Shown here: one piece after another, positions 4,189 through 30,767 of the stretch
Layout: each line of letters opens with the position of its first letter
Numbering within the stretch: position 1 is the first letter of the stretch
NCBI GenBank assembly: GCA_905236875.1
Contig: CAJOQT010000071.1
Location: 1 to 32,272, forward strand
DNA: 32,272 nt
From: an uncultured Prevotella sp.
Lineage (GTDB): Bacteria; Bacteroidota; Bacteroidia; Bacteroidales; Bacteroidaceae
Direction of reading: 5' to 3'
Translations under genes and position numbers: made by a program
Notes under the pieces: model-generated
The model's database searches: none
Told to the model about the DNA's origin: nothing
What the model saw: the letters and a program-made list of their open reading frames with translations, nothing else

Positions 4189-5072
4189 TGTCTTGCTCTG
4201 ATAAATCGTTGTTTCCCAAATTGGTCGTTTTTGATTTCGATGTCGTGGTACGACATCTTGCTTAACATCTCTACTAACTCATTCGCATAGAGTGGATTGA
4301 TTTCGAAATACAGCCATCCGTTCTCCTTGAGTGCTCTCTGTGCGTAGATGGCAATGCTGCGGTAGAAGAGCAACGGGTCGTTGTCAGGCACGAACAAGGC
4401 TTCTTCAGGTTCCCAGTCGAGCACGTTCCGTTCCATCTGCTGTCTTTCATGTTCACAGACGTACGGCGGGTTGCTGACGATGAGGTCCCAGGAGGGACGT
4501 CCGTTGTCCGTTGTTCCTCCCCTATCGGGGGAGGTCAGGAGGGGGCTTATAGACAGGACATCCACTTGCTCAAACGTTACTTTTGCGCCCAGTCGTTTGG
4601 CATTTCTTTGTGCTATATTCAGTGCTTTGCCAGAGATGTCCCATCCTGTCACCTCCACATCTTGGTCTTTGAGGTTGAGAGCTATAGTACAGGCGATGCA
4701 GCCACTGCCCGTTCCGATGTCGAGGATACGAGCCTTGTGTGGCGGATACCCTTGTGAATGAGTGACAAGGTCACACAGCCATTGGGTCTCCGGTCTGGGA
4801 ATGAGAATGCCTGGTTCCACGTAGAACCGCCGTTCGCAAAACTCCGCTTCGCCCAGCACATACTGCACAGGCTCTCCCTGCTCCAGCCGATGGGCCAGCT
4901 GTTCCAGCTCCTCTTGTGGCAGGTCAGCATCACGTTCCATCAACAGGTCGCTCAAGGTCAGTCCGTAGCGAATCTCAAACACCATACGTGCTATAGCCTT
5001 CGCCTCGTCATTGTCATACAGCGGCACCAGCCGCTGCCAAAGTTTTCTGTAAGCGTTCATCGTTTTGTTCAT
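4185..5072 (-). CDS. prmC: Peptide chain release factor N5-glutamine methyltransferase
   Basis: SAM-binding DIGTGSGCIA and catalytic NPPYV motifs. ORF track begins at a GTG (5102); ATG at 5072 or 5060 is more likely. Carries a repeat-derived insertion SPLLTSPDRGGTTDNGRPS. Confidence 0.92.
   Translation of the reverse strand: MNKTMNAYRKLWQRLVPLYDNDEAKAIARMVFEIRYGLTLSDLLMERDADLPQEELEQLAHRLEQGEPVQYVLGEAEFCERRFYVEPGILIPRPETQWLCDLVTHSQGYPPHKARILDIGTGSGCIACTIALNLKDQDVEVTGWDISGKALNIAQRNAKRLGAKVTFEQVDVLSISPLLTSPDRGGTTDNGRPSWDLIVSNPPYVCEHERQQMERNVLDWEPEEALFVPDNDPLLFYRSIAIYAQRALKENGWLYFEINPLYANELVEMLSKMSYHDIEIKNDQFGKQRFIRARQ
4499..4546. repeat. GTCCGTT heptads plus GC-rich hairpin module inside prmC
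   Basis: GTCCGTT GTCCGTT GTT CCTCCCC-TATC-GGGGGAGG TCA GGAGGGGG. Confidence 0.8.
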
Positions 5073-11022: not shown

Positions 11023-12132
11023 ATGAAATCATTATTATTAGTTCTTTTCTCAACACTTACGTTGAATTCTGTATGTTCATCAACGGCTGTTAAGGAGCAG
11101 GATGTTGTGGGCAACGGGCAAGATAGTCAGACTTCAAACCTCAAACCTCAAGCCTCAAATCAACAAGACACCCTCACCATTGCCATGACGGGTGACATCA
11201 TGATGGGCACCACGTTCCCCAGTAACCAACTGCCTCCAAACGAAGGTCGTGATATTTTCATGGACACTAAGGAGATTACCCTACGTGCCAATCTTGCTGT
11301 GGGTAATTTGGAAGGAACCCTTTGTGACGGCGGACAGACCAAGAAGAAACCAGGCCCTAATTGCTATGCTTTCCGTACGCCAACCAGTTTCGGACCGCGT
11401 CTGACAGAGGCAGGCTACGATTTTTTGAGTATGGCCAACAACCACTCCAATGACTTTGGAGCCTTTGGTATGGAGTCAACAGAAAAGACCCTCGACGCAC
11501 TGGGTATCAAGTATGCAGGTGTCAAGGGACGTGTACGTTCTGCTATCGTGGAGCGTGATGGCGTAAAGTATGGCGTGTGTGCCTTTGGTCATAACAGCTA
11601 TACGCTTAATCATAATGACCTTAACACAGTAAAGTCCATTCTCGATGACCTGCGTCCGAAGTGTGATATCCTTGTCGTTTCATTCCACGGTGGTGCAGAA
11701 GGTCGTACCCATACTCATTTACCAAAAGGTCATGAGTTTTTCTTAGGCGAGGATCGTGGCGACCTGCGAACATTCACTCACTTCTGTATTGACAATGGTG
11801 CAGACGTGGTTTATGGTCATGGTCCGCATGTGGTACGCTGTGTCGAGGTGTATAAAGGTCATTTCATCGCTTATAGCCTGGGAAATTTTTGTACGCCTTA
11901 TGGCATGAATCTTGCAGGAGTGACGGGTTATGCCCCAGTCGTAGAAATCAAGATTACAAGTGATGGTAAGTTCGTAGAGGGACAAATCCATTCATTTATC
12001 CAGCAGAAAGGTAAAGGACCACGTCGCGATGCTACGAATTCTGTTGCACGGGAGATACGTAACCTCACCCTTTCTGACATTCAGAACAGCGCCATCACCA
12101 TCAGTGAGACAGGACGTATAACATTGAAATAA
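11023..12132 (+). CDS. CapA family (PGA_cap-like) metallophosphatase-fold protein
   Basis: TIAMTGDIMMG, ANLAVGNLEGTLC, FLSMANNHSNDFG, DILVVSFHGGAE, YGHGPHVVR motifs typical of CapA proteins. Confidence 0.85.
   Translation: MKSLLLVLFSTLTLNSVCSSTAVKEQDVVGNGQDSQTSNLKPQASNQQDTLTIAMTGDIMMGTTFPSNQLPPNEGRDIFMDTKEITLRANLAVGNLEGTLCDGGQTKKKPGPNCYAFRTPTSFGPRLTEAGYDFLSMANNHSNDFGAFGMESTEKTLDALGIKYAGVKGRVRSAIVERDGVKYGVCAFGHNSYTLNHNDLNTVKSILDDLRPKCDILVVSFHGGAEGRTHTHLPKGHEFFLGEDRGDLRTFTHFCIDNGADVVYGHGPHVVRCVEVYKGHFIAYSLGNFCTPYGMNLAGVTGYAPVVEIKITSDGKFVEGQIHSFIQQKGKGPRRDATNSVAREIRNLTLSDIQNSAITISETGRITLK
11132..11159. repeat. In-frame heptamer array CTTCAAA CCTCAAA CCTCAAG CCTCAAA
   Basis: Four consecutive 7-nt units in the coding sequence (SQTSNLKPQASN), after the signal peptide. 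Confidence 0.8.
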
Positions 12133-12166: not shown

Positions 12167-14014
12167 ATGAATATTGAAGCATTAATAAGCAAGGCTGCCG
12201 GTGAAGCCGTAAAGGCACTCTATGGTATGGAGGCGACGGAGAAGATGCTGCAGCTGCAAAAGACACGTAGTGAATTCGAAGGAAACCTGACGCTTGTGGT
12301 GTTCCCCTTTGTACGAGCCGCCAAGAAGAGTCCTGAACAGACAGCCCAGGAGATTGGCGAATACCTGCAGCAAAACTGTGCAGCCGTAGAGAAGTTCAAT
12401 GTGGTGAAGGGATTTCTGAACTTGAGCGTCGGTGACGGTGCATGGCTGCAATTGTTGGAAGCCATCGACGCAGATGAGCATTTTGGCACCAAGAGTGTGC
12501 ATGAGGGTTCACCCCTCGTGATGATCGAGTACTCTTCTCCTAATACCAACAAGCCGCTGCACCTGGGTCATGTGCGTAACAACCTGCTGGGTTGGTCGCT
12601 GGCTCAGATTATGGAGGCCAATGGCAACAAGGTAGTGAAGACGAACATCGTGAACGACCGTGGTATCCATATCTGTAAGTCGATGCTGGCTTGGCTCAAG
12701 TACGGCAATGGCGAGACACCCGAGTCTTCCGGCAAGAAAGGTGACCATCTGATAGGCGACTACTATGTGGCCTTCGACAAGCACTACCGCGAGGAAATCA
12801 GGGAACTCGTAGCTCAAGGTATGGATGAAGAAAAAGCCAAGCAAGAGGCTCCGTTGATTAAGGAAGCTCATGAAATGCTGGTAAAGTGGGAGCAGAACGA
12901 CCCTGAAGTACGTGCCTTATGGGAGAAGATGAATAGCTGGGTATATGCCGGCTTTGATGAGACTTATAAGAAGATGGGCGTTGCCTTCGACAAGATATAC
13001 TATGAATCTCAGACCTACCTCAAAGGTAAGGCCAAGGTAGAGGAGGGACTTGCCAAAGGTCTCTTTGAGCGTCATGATGATGGCTCGGTATGGGCAGACC
13101 TCACTAACGAGGGGCTTGACCAGAAGCTATTGCTGCGTAGCGACGGCACCTCCGTTTATATGACGCAGGACATTGGAACGGCCGAGATGCGTTTCCAAGA
13201 CTACCCCATTGACAAGATGATCTATGTGGTAGGCAACGAGCAAAACTATCACTTTCAGGTTCTCTCCATATTACTTGACCGTCTGGGTTTCAAGTGGGGA
13301 AAGGAATTGGTACACTTCTCCTATGGTATGGTGGAGCTGCCCAATGGTAAGATGAAGAGTCGTGAGGGAACCGTTGTTGATGCTGACGACCTGATGGAGC
13401 TGATGGTCGAGGATGCCTATAAGACATCGATGGAGCTGGGCAAGTTCGACGATATGACCGAAGAGGAACGCCGTGAGATTGCCCGCATCGTGGGCATGGG
13501 CGCCCTGAAATACTTCATCCTGAAGGTCGATGCACGAAAGAACATGCTCTTCAACCCCGAGGAAAGTATCGATTTCAACGGTAATACCGGTCCTTTCATC
13601 CAATATACCTACGCCCGTATCCGCTCTATTCTCCGCAAGAGTGTAGAGTGTAGAACGGAGAATGTAGAGTTTGCTACCGCACATAATGAAAATGCTTCAG
13701 GGACAGCGGAAGCAAATTCTACACGCTACACTCTACACTCTAAACTTTCCGATAAGGAAATAGAGCTCATCCAGAAGATGAACGAGTTTGGCGCTGTCGT
13801 GGAGCAAGCTGGTAAGGACTATTCGCCCAGTGGTATCGCCAACTACTGCTATGAGCTGACGAAGGTGTTCAACCAGTTCTATCACGACTACAGCATCCTC
13901 AACGAGGCTGACGAACAGAAGAAGGCCATACGTCTGATGCTGGCAAAGAATGTAGCTAAGGTCATTAAGAGCGGTATGGCTCTGCTGGGCATCGAAGTGC
14001 CCGAACGTATGTAG
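12167..14014 (+). CDS. argS: Arginyl-tRNA synthetase (class I)
   Basis: SPNTNKPLHLGHVRNN (HIGH motif), GMVELPNGKMKSREGTVV, DALR anticodon-binding domain. Repeat-derived insertion at about 13639-13745. Confidence 0.96.
   Translation: MNIEALISKAAGEAVKALYGMEATEKMLQLQKTRSEFEGNLTLVVFPFVRAAKKSPEQTAQEIGEYLQQNCAAVEKFNVVKGFLNLSVGDGAWLQLLEAIDADEHFGTKSVHEGSPLVMIEYSSPNTNKPLHLGHVRNNLLGWSLAQIMEANGNKVVKTNIVNDRGIHICKSMLAWLKYGNGETPESSGKKGDHLIGDYYVAFDKHYREEIRELVAQGMDEEKAKQEAPLIKEAHEMLVKWEQNDPEVRALWEKMNSWVYAGFDETYKKMGVAFDKIYYESQTYLKGKAKVEEGLAKGLFERHDDGSVWADLTNEGLDQKLLLRSDGTSVYMTQDIGTAEMRFQDYPIDKMIYVVGNEQNYHFQVLSILLDRLGFKWGKELVHFSYGMVELPNGKMKSREGTVVDADDLMELMVEDAYKTSMELGKFDDMTEEERREIARIVGMGALKYFILKVDARKNMLFNPEESIDFNGNTGPFIQYTYARIRSILRKSVECRTENVEFATAHNENASGTAEANSTRYTLHSKLSDKEIELIQKMNEFGAVVEQAGKDYSPSGIANYCYELTKVFNQFYHDYSILNEADEQKKAIRLMLAKNVAKVIKSGMALLGIEVPERM
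13639..13743. repeat. Inverted-pair heptad element inserted in frame in argS
   Basis: Left arm GAGT GTAGAGT GTAGAAC GGAGAAT GTAGAGT TTGCTACCGC; right arm GCGGAAGCAA ATTCTAC ACGCTAC ACTCTAC ACTCTAA; arms are imperfect reverse complements. Confidence 0.85.
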
Positions 14015-22933: not shown

Positions 22934-22991
22934 GTCTGTTGTCCGTTGTCCCTCCCCCTCGGGGGAGCTGGAGAGGGGTCTGTCCGTTGTC
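22934..22991. repeat. GC-rich hairpin flanked by GTCYGTT heptads, between PL1 and PL9 genes
   Basis: GTCTGTT GTCCGTT GTC CCTCCCCCTCGGGGGAGCTGGAGAGGGGTCT GTCCGTT GTC. Confidence 0.85.
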
Positions 22992-22992
22992 A

Positions 22993-24399
22993 TTATTGCT
23001 TAATCATCTTCTCCGTCCTGACAGTGCCGTCAGGTAATGTGTAGCGTACGATGTTGATACCCTTTTGTGGGGCGCTGAGCGGCATGCCCGACAGGGAGAA
23101 GTACTCTGCTTTTTGGTAATACCGTGAATCGGTCATCGGCAGGCGGACGGATGTGCCCGTATTGGCGTAGCCTGTCACGCCCAGACCAACTTCTACCATG
23201 AGGTTGGCTCCAGCACCAGTAAACTCATCGCCTACGATACTGGGTACAAGTTCCATGTCAAAGCCCTCATAGGTGTAGTAGTCGGAAGGAACGAAATAGT
23301 CGGCACCGCCAACCTCAGACTTTACGTCAGCCGCATTGTGGCAGCCGTAGATTTGTAGGTTATAGTCAGGATAACCGTGCTTGGCATCCGTATAGTTCTT
23401 CGACACGACGACACCATCGGCAAACCAGCATTTCTCGGCATAGATGTTACACTTATAGCCGTAGCCGATGCTGTAGTTGTTGCCTGTGTTGGTATAGTAG
23501 CAGTTGACAATGTGAACCTTGCCGAAGCGAACACGCGGGCAGCGTTCCATGCAACCCTCATCCCACCAGCAGTTGGCAAAGGTGGTGTTCAGATGACCTA
23601 CGCTTTCTGCTGCCTTGTCGCTGGCACCCCAGGTGTTGCAATAGCGATGGTCGTTACTGCCTCCGGAGCCGCCGGCCAGTGGTGGGATGCGATAGATGAA
23701 GTGACACCACGTCACACAGACATAGTCGGACTCATGGTTGCAGTCGAAGCTGCTATCCACACCGTCACCAATGGTGCAGTGATCGACCCAGATGCGTTTC
23801 ACACCCTGAAACAGCAGGGCATCGTCGCCATCGACATCGTATGCACCAGCTCCCTGAATAGTCAGGTTGCGAAGGATGATGTTCTCAGAATCAGCACCGC
23901 TGCCGCTGGAGAACTTCATGACGCCGCTGTTCTTTTTCGTGCGGTCCTTGCTGAAGATCCTGGAACCAGGCAGACCAAGTATGGTCTTGTTCTTGACATG
24001 CCAGGTGTGCATCCTCGTGAATTCTATCTCACCCTTGACATAGATGATCATGGGAACGTCACGCTCCTTGGTCACTGGGTCTTTCGTGGTAATGGCTGCC
24101 TCAAACTCGTCTTCAGTAGTGACTACCACTTCTGTGCCGCCTTCGCCACCAGTTACTTCAAAGCCAGGCATGGCGCCCCAGCCGAAGGGACGGTTCAGGT
24201 CGTACAGGCTGAGCGGTGTCTGGGCGATGATGGTTAAAGGCAGAAAAGCCAAAAGCAGAGCCGCTGTCCGCAGTCTGTTGTCGTTCTTGCGTCCCTTTGA
24301 GACCCCCTCCAAACCTCCCCAAGGGGAGACTTTCTGCGCACACGTTTCCCCCCTCGGGGGGACGGAAGAGGGGGCCTGTCTGTTGTCTATTGTCATCAT
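22993..24399 (-). CDS. Pectate lyase family PL1 (with repeat-derived N-terminal extension)
   Basis: DDALLFQGVKRIWVDHCTIGDGVDSSFDCNHESDYVCVTWCHF and RCPRVRFGKVHIVNCYY; signal-peptide-like segment RTAALLLAFLPLTIIAQ preceded by about 40 repeat-encoded residues. Confidence 0.88.
   Translation of the reverse strand: MMTIDNRQAPSSVPPRGETCAQKVSPWGGLEGVSKGRKNDNRLRTAALLLAFLPLTIIAQTPLSLYDLNRPFGWGAMPGFEVTGGEGGTEVVVTTEDEFEAAITTKDPVTKERDVPMIIYVKGEIEFTRMHTWHVKNKTILGLPGSRIFSKDRTKKNSGVMKFSSGSGADSENIILRNLTIQGAGAYDVDGDDALLFQGVKRIWVDHCTIGDGVDSSFDCNHESDYVCVTWCHFIYRIPPLAGGSGGSNDHRYCNTWGASDKAAESVGHLNTTFANCWWDEGCMERCPRVRFGKVHIVNCYYTNTGNNYSIGYGYKCNIYAEKCWFADGVVVSKNYTDAKHGYPDYNLQIYGCHNAADVKSEVGGADYFVPSDYYTYEGFDMELVPSIVGDEFTGAGANLMVEVGLGVTGYANTGTSVRLPMTDSRYYQKAEYFSLSGMPLSAPQKGINIVRYTLPDGTVRTEKMIKQ
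24273..24394. repeat. Head-to-head GC-rich hairpin pair with heptad tails within the PL1 5' coding region
   Basis: GTCTGTTGTCGTTCTTGCGTCCCTT, inverted hairpin unit 24301-24332, forward unit 24344-24377, tail GTCTGTT GTCTATT GTC. Confidence 0.85.
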
Positions 24400-29441: not shown

Positions 29442-29523
29442 ACTCCTACACTCCTACACTCCTACACTCCTACACTCCTGCAACTCCTACACTCCTTCAC
29501 TCCTGCAACTCCTACACTCCTAT
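29442..29523. repeat. Octamer tandem array (ACTCCTAC)n, about 10 units
   Basis: ACTCCTAC x4, ACTCCTGCA, ACTCCTAC, ACTCCTTC, ACTCCTGCA, ACTCCTAC, ACTCCTAT; extends through the GT4 stop codon. Confidence 0.93.
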
Positions 29524-30742
29524 AAATCTCCATCACCTGTGCAGCGACATCGGAGCCTTCAAAACGGCGGATATACTCGCGGCTGCGGATAATCCGTTCC
29601 TCACGTCCTTCGGCACCGTGAAGCAGCTGACGTATGGCAACGGCCATACCTTCAGCATCATCGGGATTGACGTAAAGGGAATGCGGCCCACCCGCTTCTT
29701 CCAGACACGACCCTGTGGCGGCCACTACTGGCAGTCCCATGGCAATGGCCTCGATGATGGGAATGCCGAATCCTTCGTAACGCGAAGGATAGACAAAGGC
29801 TTCTGCACCTGCATATAGTGACGGCAGCTCGTCGTCAGTAACGTCATGACGCATCACGACACGATGGGACAACCCGTGCTGGTCGGCCCACTGGCGTACC
29901 TTGTCGGCATACTTCGTCCGTCTTCCCACGATGACCAACGACAGTGTCTCTGGCAAATGGCAGAGTGCCTTGACTGCCAACAGGATATTCTTGCGCTCCT
30001 CGATGGTACCAACGCTGAGAAGGTAGGGGTAGGCCCCCCTCTCATCCCTCCTGTAGGGGGGAAGCCAAGAGCCCTTTCTCCTCCCCTCATCGGGGGAGGC
30101 TGGGAGGGGACCGAACCTTGGTGAGAAGCTCTGATAGACGACGGTGATCTTGTCTTCCTTCACACCGCCCAGTTCCATGATGTCCTGCTTGGTACGCTCA
30201 CTGATGGCAATGATGCGGTCGGCCTCACGGATGGTCTGCCGGAACTTCCAGGCATAGATCTTGGTGTCCAGCCAGTGGTAATATTCTGGATGTCGTAGGA
30301 AGATAAGGTCATGGATGGTAACGACGCTCTTGATGCCAGCCTTACGCAGACCGACTGGCAACTCGCCCGACAGACCGTGAAAAAGCTGTATGCCGTCGCG
30401 CTTCAGGTCGCTGACAATACCGTATGTGCGCCACAACCCATACTTCAACCCTTGCGCCCAAGTCCCCTTCTGGACCGTTGTCTGTTGTCGTTCTTGCGTC
30501 CCTTGGCCGAGCGGTCTGTTGTCCGTTGTCTGTTGTCCGTTGTCCGTTTTGAAGTGGAAGGTGACGTTGGGACGCATGACAATCTGGTTGCGCAGGTCGT
30601 CACGTCCCTGGTCGGGAGCGTATAGATGTAGCGACAACTCCCCACCGGCCGCCTGCGAGAGGTCGTTGACCAGTGTGCGTCCGTAGCTTCCCAGTCCTGT
30701 TCCGTTGCGGACAATGCGTTTGGCGTCAAGTCCTATCTTCAT
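29462..30742 (-). CDS. Glycosyltransferase family 4
   Basis: MKIGLDAKRIVRNGTGLGSYGR start, YLLSVGTIEERKN, PSRYEGFGIPIIEAIAMGLPVVAATGSCLEEAGG. ORF-track start 30760 is a GTG about 8 nt from the -7 box, so ATG 30751 or 30742 is preferred. Confidence 0.9.
   Translation of the reverse strand: MKIGLDAKRIVRNGTGLGSYGRTLVNDLSQAAGGELSLHLYAPDQGRDDLRNQIVMRPNVTFHFKTDNGQQTTDNRPLGQGTQERQQTTVQKGTWAQGLKYGLWRTYGIVSDLKRDGIQLFHGLSGELPVGLRKAGIKSVVTIHDLIFLRHPEYYHWLDTKIYAWKFRQTIREADRIIAISERTKQDIMELGGVKEDKITVVYQSFSPRFGPLPASPDEGRRKGSWLPPYRRDERGAYPYLLSVGTIEERKNILLAVKALCHLPETLSLVIVGRRTKYADKVRQWADQHGLSHRVVMRHDVTDDELPSLYAGAEAFVYPSRYEGFGIPIIEAIAMGLPVVAATGSCLEEAGGPHSLYVNPDDAEGMAVAIRQLLHGAEGREERIIRSREYIRRFEGSDVAAQVMEIYRSVGVAGVKECRSCRSVGV
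30032..30112. repeat. Head-to-head GC-rich hairpin pair inserted in frame in GT4
   Basis: Inverted unit GGCCCCCCTCTCATCCCTCCTGTAGGGGGGAA (30032-30063) and forward unit TTTCTCCTCCCCTCATCGGGGGAGGCTGGGAGGGGACC (30075-30112). Confidence 0.8.
30473..30548. repeat. GTCYGTT heptad arrays inserted in frame in GT4
   Basis: GACCGTT GTCTGTT GTCGTTCTTGCGTCCCTT ... GTCTGTT GTCCGTT GTCTGTT GTCCGTT GTCCGTT (last five units 30514-30548 in perfect register). Confidence 0.92.
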
Positions 30743-30767
30743 AGTCGTCATCTTTTCCACATCGGCG

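Follow-up and report, generated by a model that had tools for sequence, protein, structure and literature searches.

Heptanucleotide tandem repeats of a Prevotella genome lie mostly within genes, and repeats of related species recur at the same protein sites, often with a different unit

We describe heptanucleotide tandem repeats of the unit GTCYGTT in an uncultured Prevotella sp., starting from a window of 32,272 nucleotides (contig C71 of a 2.65-Mb draft genome in 128 contigs). The arrays are dispersed through the genome, their unit is private to the species, the shared DNA is independent of the reading frame, permissive sites are hit recurrently, units turn over between related species and hairpin modules are associated with the arrays. 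This supports a model, to which we assign a probability of about 70%, according to which heptamer repeats spread by ectopic copying between arrays and are kept at positions that tolerate the encoded peptide, REP-like hairpins being embedded in them.

The window carries repeat-derived sequences at several positions, three of these as inserts in one GT4 gene, the closest relatives of which are found in rumen Prevotella:

29462–30745, minus strand: host gene encoding a family-4 glycosyltransferase (GT4), with three repeat-derived inserts (Pfam Glycos_transf_1, 3e-28; Glyco_transf_4, 5e-15)
30473–30486, plus strand: imperfect heptad GACCGTT and perfect heptad GTCTGTT, left of element B
30490–30513, plus strand: element B with a 16-bp internal deletion, GTTCTTGCGTCCCTT / GGCCGAGCG, from pairwise alignment to the full element
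30514–30548, plus strand: five tandem GTCYGTT heptads (variants T, C, T, C, C)
30041–30109, no strand assigned: GC-rich palindromic repeat of the CCTCCCC..GGGGAGG type in the GT4 interdomain linker (residues about 216-246)
29442–29522, no strand assigned: ACTCCTAC octamer array encoding an extra C-terminal tail of the GT4 protein
24273–24297, plus strand: second window copy of a 25-mer, consisting of a heptad and the 5' half of B, which is cut off where a palindromic element follows
24298–24384, no strand assigned: palindromic element E, CCCCCTCC..CCCCTCGGGG..GAGGGGG, with a heptad at its end
22934–22988, plus strand: intergenic heptads either side of a GC-rich palindrome
4499–4545, plus strand: heptad pair and palindrome in prmC, encoding an insert ahead of the NPPY motif

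The initial annotation had pointed to a 25-mer shared between two positions of the window and translated differently at each. We find GTCTGTTGTCGTTCTTGCGTCCCTT as an exact match at 24273-24297 and 30480-30504 (expected 0.00 in shuffles), and the two translations are as it had given them, i.e. QGTQERQQT in the GT4 protein and KGRKNDNR in a pectate lyase (Pfam Pectate_lyase_4), in which the copy encodes the N-terminal region ahead of the signal peptide. Relative to the codon phase, the 15-mer core of the 25-mer is in frame 1 in the GT4 gene and in frame 0 in the lyase gene. The perfect register described for the heptads holds for the five at 30514-30548, encoding TDNGQQTTDNR on the gene strand, and for 30480-30486, but 30473-30479 is GACCGTT with one mismatch. 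The order in the GT4 gene is GACCGTT-GTCTGTT-GTC-GTTCTTGCGTCCCTT/GGCCGAGCG-(GTCYGTT)5. As B is cut at the identical point in both copies, being followed by a GC-rich palindrome in the copy at 24273, the 25-mer is not a single unit but is made up of a GTCYGTT heptad and the opening half of the truncated hairpin element B.

Searching the genome for the 25-mer, as had been proposed, returned ten copies with up to three mismatches (four exact, on three contigs). The accompanying tabulation of frames for the 15-mer core of B gave 13 coding copies (frame 1, eight; frame 2, three; frame 0, two) and 11 intergenic ones. One and the same DNA is thus read in all three frames and also placed between genes, so its identity is not due to selection on the protein, as the initial annotation had argued; the matching DNA in different frames is copied repeat DNA.

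The GTCYGTT dimer occurs 178 times in the source genome, on both strands and on many contigs. The trimer occurs 93 times there vs one time each in five of 397 other genomes of the genus, showing GTCYGTT to be a species-private form of heptanucleotide tandem repeat; in IMG/VR it is present on 25 contigs, nearly all with a single isolated trimer. From stretches around each heptad match, together with 20 unselected stretches of the same genome, we read 71 arrays of at least two units, arranged head-to-tail in tandem, and placed them relative to genes predicted with a home-made codon-score caller. Inside predicted genes lie 46 of the 71 arrays, 43 of these on the antisense strand (peptide TDNGQQT). 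The intergenic arrays are located between co-oriented genes (22), convergent genes (two) or, in one case, genes of unassigned orientation, with none between divergent genes, and often start 1-12 nt past a stop codon. Several antisense arrays lie in the linker ahead of C-terminal tails such as WYDLSGRRVENPTKG (L124, L137, L149, L155, L156, L172). At least four sense arrays constitute signal-peptide cores of the VCCLLSVVCCP type (L133 with MKTIKRTLTTSIVCCLLSVVCCPSMAQ, two in L138, and L146), those of L133 and L146 having been counted as intergenic in the initial placement tally; with these two signal-peptide arrays set aside, the antisense bias is also present between genes (17:3).

Computationally, GTCYGTT contains no stop codon in any of the six frames and encodes one seven-residue cycle per strand, i.e. 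the hydrophilic TDN(R/G)QQT in antisense and the hydrophobic VCCLLSV in sense; the unit has no G-run. Since the arrays are open in six frames and give the same peptide in every frame of a strand, they are easily tolerated. We considered six-frame openness as a general law and rejected it, as 22% of 58 Prevotella heptads are open on both strands vs 36% of GC-matched random 7-mers. Openness accordingly accounts for the tolerance of GTCYGTT and not for the origin of heptads, and peptide tolerance leaves the intergenic antisense bias unexplained.

Among short tandem periods, seven clearly dominates in the sampled Prevotella loci. In 0.95 Mb of 80 congeners the numbers of arrays with periods 5 to 11 are 0, 2, 98, 25, 10, 3 and 4, and codon-block shuffles yielded no period-7 array. 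Exact period-7 runs reach 63/Mb in congeners and 32/Mb in the unselected stretches of the source genome, compared to 4/Mb in other Bacteroidales families. Identical unit pairs account for 17.6% within a locus vs 1.6% between loci. A TRF survey of the congeners (L031-L110) also showed periods 12 (30 arrays) and 22 (21 arrays) to be prominent.

Comparison of orthologues shows unrelated heptads at the same protein sites. Among 77 genomes aligned, the heptad insert of the window GT4 is missing from the orthologues and the octamer-encoded tail from most of them. Other period-7 arrays are present in 12 of the 77, at two sites only: all 15 GT4 arrays, with the window's among them, map to residues about 61-109 or 216-246. 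Their units include ATTCCAC, TCCTCAC, GAGTTAG, GAAGGAA, AAGAATG, ACAATGC, TCTTCAC and AAGGTCA, and the same search for periods 5, 6, 8, 9 and 10 returned 0, 0, 1, 0 and 0 arrays. In an AlphaFold2 model of the window GT4 (mean pLDDT 83.5) the repeat inserts are predicted as low-confidence loops, comprising the heptad insert (residues 80-90, pLDDT <50), the linker around residues 205-240 (pLDDT 55-64) and the octamer-encoded tail (415-427, pLDDT <50). At the PrmC insert site preceding IVSNPPY, unrelated heptads are found in L246, L250, L251 and L255, and palindrome-like inserts in L247, L248 and L254. Further heptad families occur in the window. The argS insert KSVECRTENVEFATAHNENASGTAEANSTRYTLHSKLSD (13638-13746) is built from AGAGTGT / TCTACAC, and the GT4 gene of L036 contains SVECRTENLES, resembling this insert. 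TCAAACC (11134-11159) gives rise to QTSNLKPQASNQQ close to the N-terminal end of the product of the gene at 11023-12132 and also adjoins a GTCYGTT array in L153. In Rfam the window matches only a tRNA, and nine repeat-bearing loci give no match.

Unit turnover was followed by comparing related loci in 18 pairs, most of them 81-96% identical. Array sites in these pairs have the same unit (six), the same unit with changed copy number (three), a one-base unit change (six), a replaced unit (six), an array present in one partner and absent from the other (six) or flanks that cannot be aligned (seven). In L048 vs L051 (91% identity), the unit differs at all four shared sites, including both GT4 sites, with three units replaced and one changed by one base; in L044 vs L046, AAGAGTG x4 faces AGAGAGG x5 between conserved flanks. 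Between sister species of about 90% identity, array sites often persist while the seven-base unit is replaced. Turnover is not always fast: certain sister arrays are identical between genomes sharing about 88% identity. Within GTCYGTT arrays the C and T variants alternate, neighbouring units being identical in 51 of 138 cases (37%, lag 1) and next-but-one units in 60 of 93 (65%, lag 2), which points to the copying of 14-bp blocks and away from single-unit slippage.

Element B (TTCTTGCGTCCCTTCGGTAGCAAGCGGCAAAGCCGAGCG, about 39 bp) is composed of two hairpins and is present in 36 copies in the source genome (28-nt core, up to three mismatches). Of 100 genomes of the genus, this one included, 20 carry B, two of them with 21 and 15 copies, and in other species it sits in other heptads, i.e. 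CTCAGTT (L224), TTCACTC (L232, L243) and GTGAAGA (L222). Stem 2 shows compensatory changes, both sides being altered at two pairs (in four sequences and in two, respectively); 97.7% of the cells are paired. All three antisense frames of B are open and one sense frame contains a stop; a single gene (L129:1030-1094) carries two adjacent copies in two different frames (GLAACYRRDARTTTDRSALPLATEGTQER). A hairpin module lies within 75 bp of 32 of the 71 arrays vs 19 of 3000 random positions. Other modules were observed as well: a perfect hairpin C, TCAGCGG(N4-6)CCGCTGAMCACA, precedes same-orientation heptads in about 11 of the 71 arrays (L142, L157, L162, L173 and others), and a short module GCGGTAGCAAATTC or its complement repeatedly adjoins heptad arrays in several species (L222, L232, L243, L039, L044). 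At an orthologous intergenic site, the AATGAGG array is uninterrupted in L074 and contains a composite palindromic element of ~70 bp in L106, the two being an empty and a filled site for hairpin insertion. BLAST of B against plasmids and phages gave no match. Transport of B by phages, which we considered, is unsupported; 16 IMG/VR contigs hold B, some plausibly being host DNA.

Bacterial heptamer over-representation has been noted since 2007 without a detailed account (PMC4692102). Close known counterparts are heptameric SSRs of the units GGGAATC in Xanthomonas and GGGGAYT in Nostoc, with about 90-190 loci per genome and imperfect units, which are mainly intergenic and G-quadruplex forming, lie between aligned genes, are avoided between divergent genes, and keep their position among relatives while length and sequence vary (Rehm et al. 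2015, PMC4692102). The Prevotella arrays resemble these in being dispersed, imperfect, placed between aligned genes and retaining the site while the unit varies. They differ in that 46 of 71 lie in genes, in having no G-run, in being interlaced with hairpin elements and in that unrelated heptads strike the same protein sites across species. GTCYGTT accordingly shares with the heptameric SSR/STRR class the tandem 7-nt unit, the genome-wide dispersal and the aligned or convergent, not divergent, placement, but is not predominantly non-coding, a feature typical of the class and not strictly defining. TAACTGA heptamers have been reported from Beggiatoaceae, from some cyanobacteria and from five Bacteroidetes; they occupy many loci of a genome, lie mainly just upstream of start codons, contain stops in all three forward frames and are occasionally inserted at the periphery of proteins, and the same study noticed 'other heptamer repeats' in intergenic regions of Bacteroidetes (MacGregor 2015, PMC4679880). 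GTCYGTT is likewise a heptamer direct repeat at many loci and also within proteins, but it is free of stops in every frame and located mainly in genes. In the literature collection that we searched, no paper deals with Prevotella heptads. New compared to the known heptamers are the mostly coding location, the recurrent protein sites hit by unrelated heptads and the replacement of units at conserved sites, as these are the aspects in which the Prevotella arrays differ from them. REP elements and Rickettsia palindromic elements are small dispersed hairpins located between co-oriented genes and sometimes in genes (Di Nocera et al. 2013, PMC3733652). B is similar in size and fold, being a dispersed palindrome of 20-40 bp in high copy, but it has two hairpins, lies within species-specific heptad arrays and lacks the terminal unpaired GTAG/CGTC tag: both motifs are internal only, and the conserved ends are TTCTTG and CGAGCG.

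According to the model we favour, new arrays would arise, and existing ones grow, when blocks are copied from arrays of the same family elsewhere, possibly through ectopic template switching or gene conversion, together with slippage. The small hairpins (B, C, D/E) lodged in the arrays might either travel along with them as passengers or land there preferentially as guests; this part of the model, like the copying route, is suggested by comparison of sequences. Insertions would persist where they do little harm, i.e. just past stop codons and in protein loops, linkers, termini and signal-peptide cores. A different and rather unlikely account, yet one deserving consideration, is independent local birth, in which each site is a slippage hotspot creating a heptad de novo and the sharing within a genome reflects a common composition bias. 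The dominance of period 7 regardless of sequence agrees with it, as do the stepwise variants and copy-number changes of sister arrays (e.g. L051, (CACTCCT)2(CGTTCCT)3(CCTTCCT)3), and slippage has been put forward as the origin of bacterial heptamers, with the dimensions of the polymerase active site as the reason (PMC4692102). However, local birth cannot yield one GTCYGTT unit at about 70 places and nearly none in 397 relatives, and accounts neither for the shared junctions of heptad and B nor for the 14-bp alternation.

That B is a mobile unit transposed in a MITE/REP-like manner by a RAYT-type transposase, the heptads being a by-product, would fit its about 39 bp with two hairpins, the compensatory changes in stem 2, the genus-wide dispersal and the presence of one Y1 transposase gene in the genome; we consider this unlikely. 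This single Y1_Tnp (Y1/REP-type transposase) gene (L174:1084-1896) is flanked not by B but by a different palindrome, GGGGACAGG..CCTGTCCCC (also given as GGGGACAGGCACCTGACCC..CCTGTCCCC), 39 of the 71 arrays have no hairpin module nearby, B lies within unrelated heptads in other species, and heptads are common in the genus without needing B. With a single gene and the wrong flanking repeats, we rejected RAYT as the driver of the arrays; from the description of the 25-mer as mobile or copied DNA, copying is upheld and mobility through a dedicated transposase is not. Phase variation, with slippage of the unit turning genes on and off, appears very improbable to us: adding or removing a unit changes the reading frame, since seven is not divisible by three, and arrays occur in surface as well as housekeeping genes, but they are short, imperfect and mixed in C and T, many host genes are housekeeping ones such as prmC, and some orthologous arrays retain length and unit between species. 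Duplication of the 25-mer by an assembly artefact or misjoin, which the initial annotation had named as refuting its reading, might be suspected in a draft of 128 contigs; its probability is negligible, and we exclude it in view of the many contigs involved, the different flanks of the ten 25-mer copies, the 36 copies of B in the genome and the occurrence of B in independent genomes and on the 16 IMG/VR contigs. More speculatively, and in our estimate improbably, an active and possibly enzyme-dependent process might write heptads in Prevotella, with a species-specific unit that could be exchanged at existing sites, somewhat like telomere repeats following their template, and with the 7-nt step set by a machine and not by chance slippage.

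Prevotella offers many genomes, unit families and sister pairs with persisting sites and changing units, making the origin of the seven-base period testable. The data indicate that neutral repeat DNA can furnish protein linkers and whole signal-peptide cores. Where Prevotella proteins contain stretches resembling TDNGQQT, HSTFHIP or SVECRTEN, these derive from repeats and are no evidence of domains or homology.
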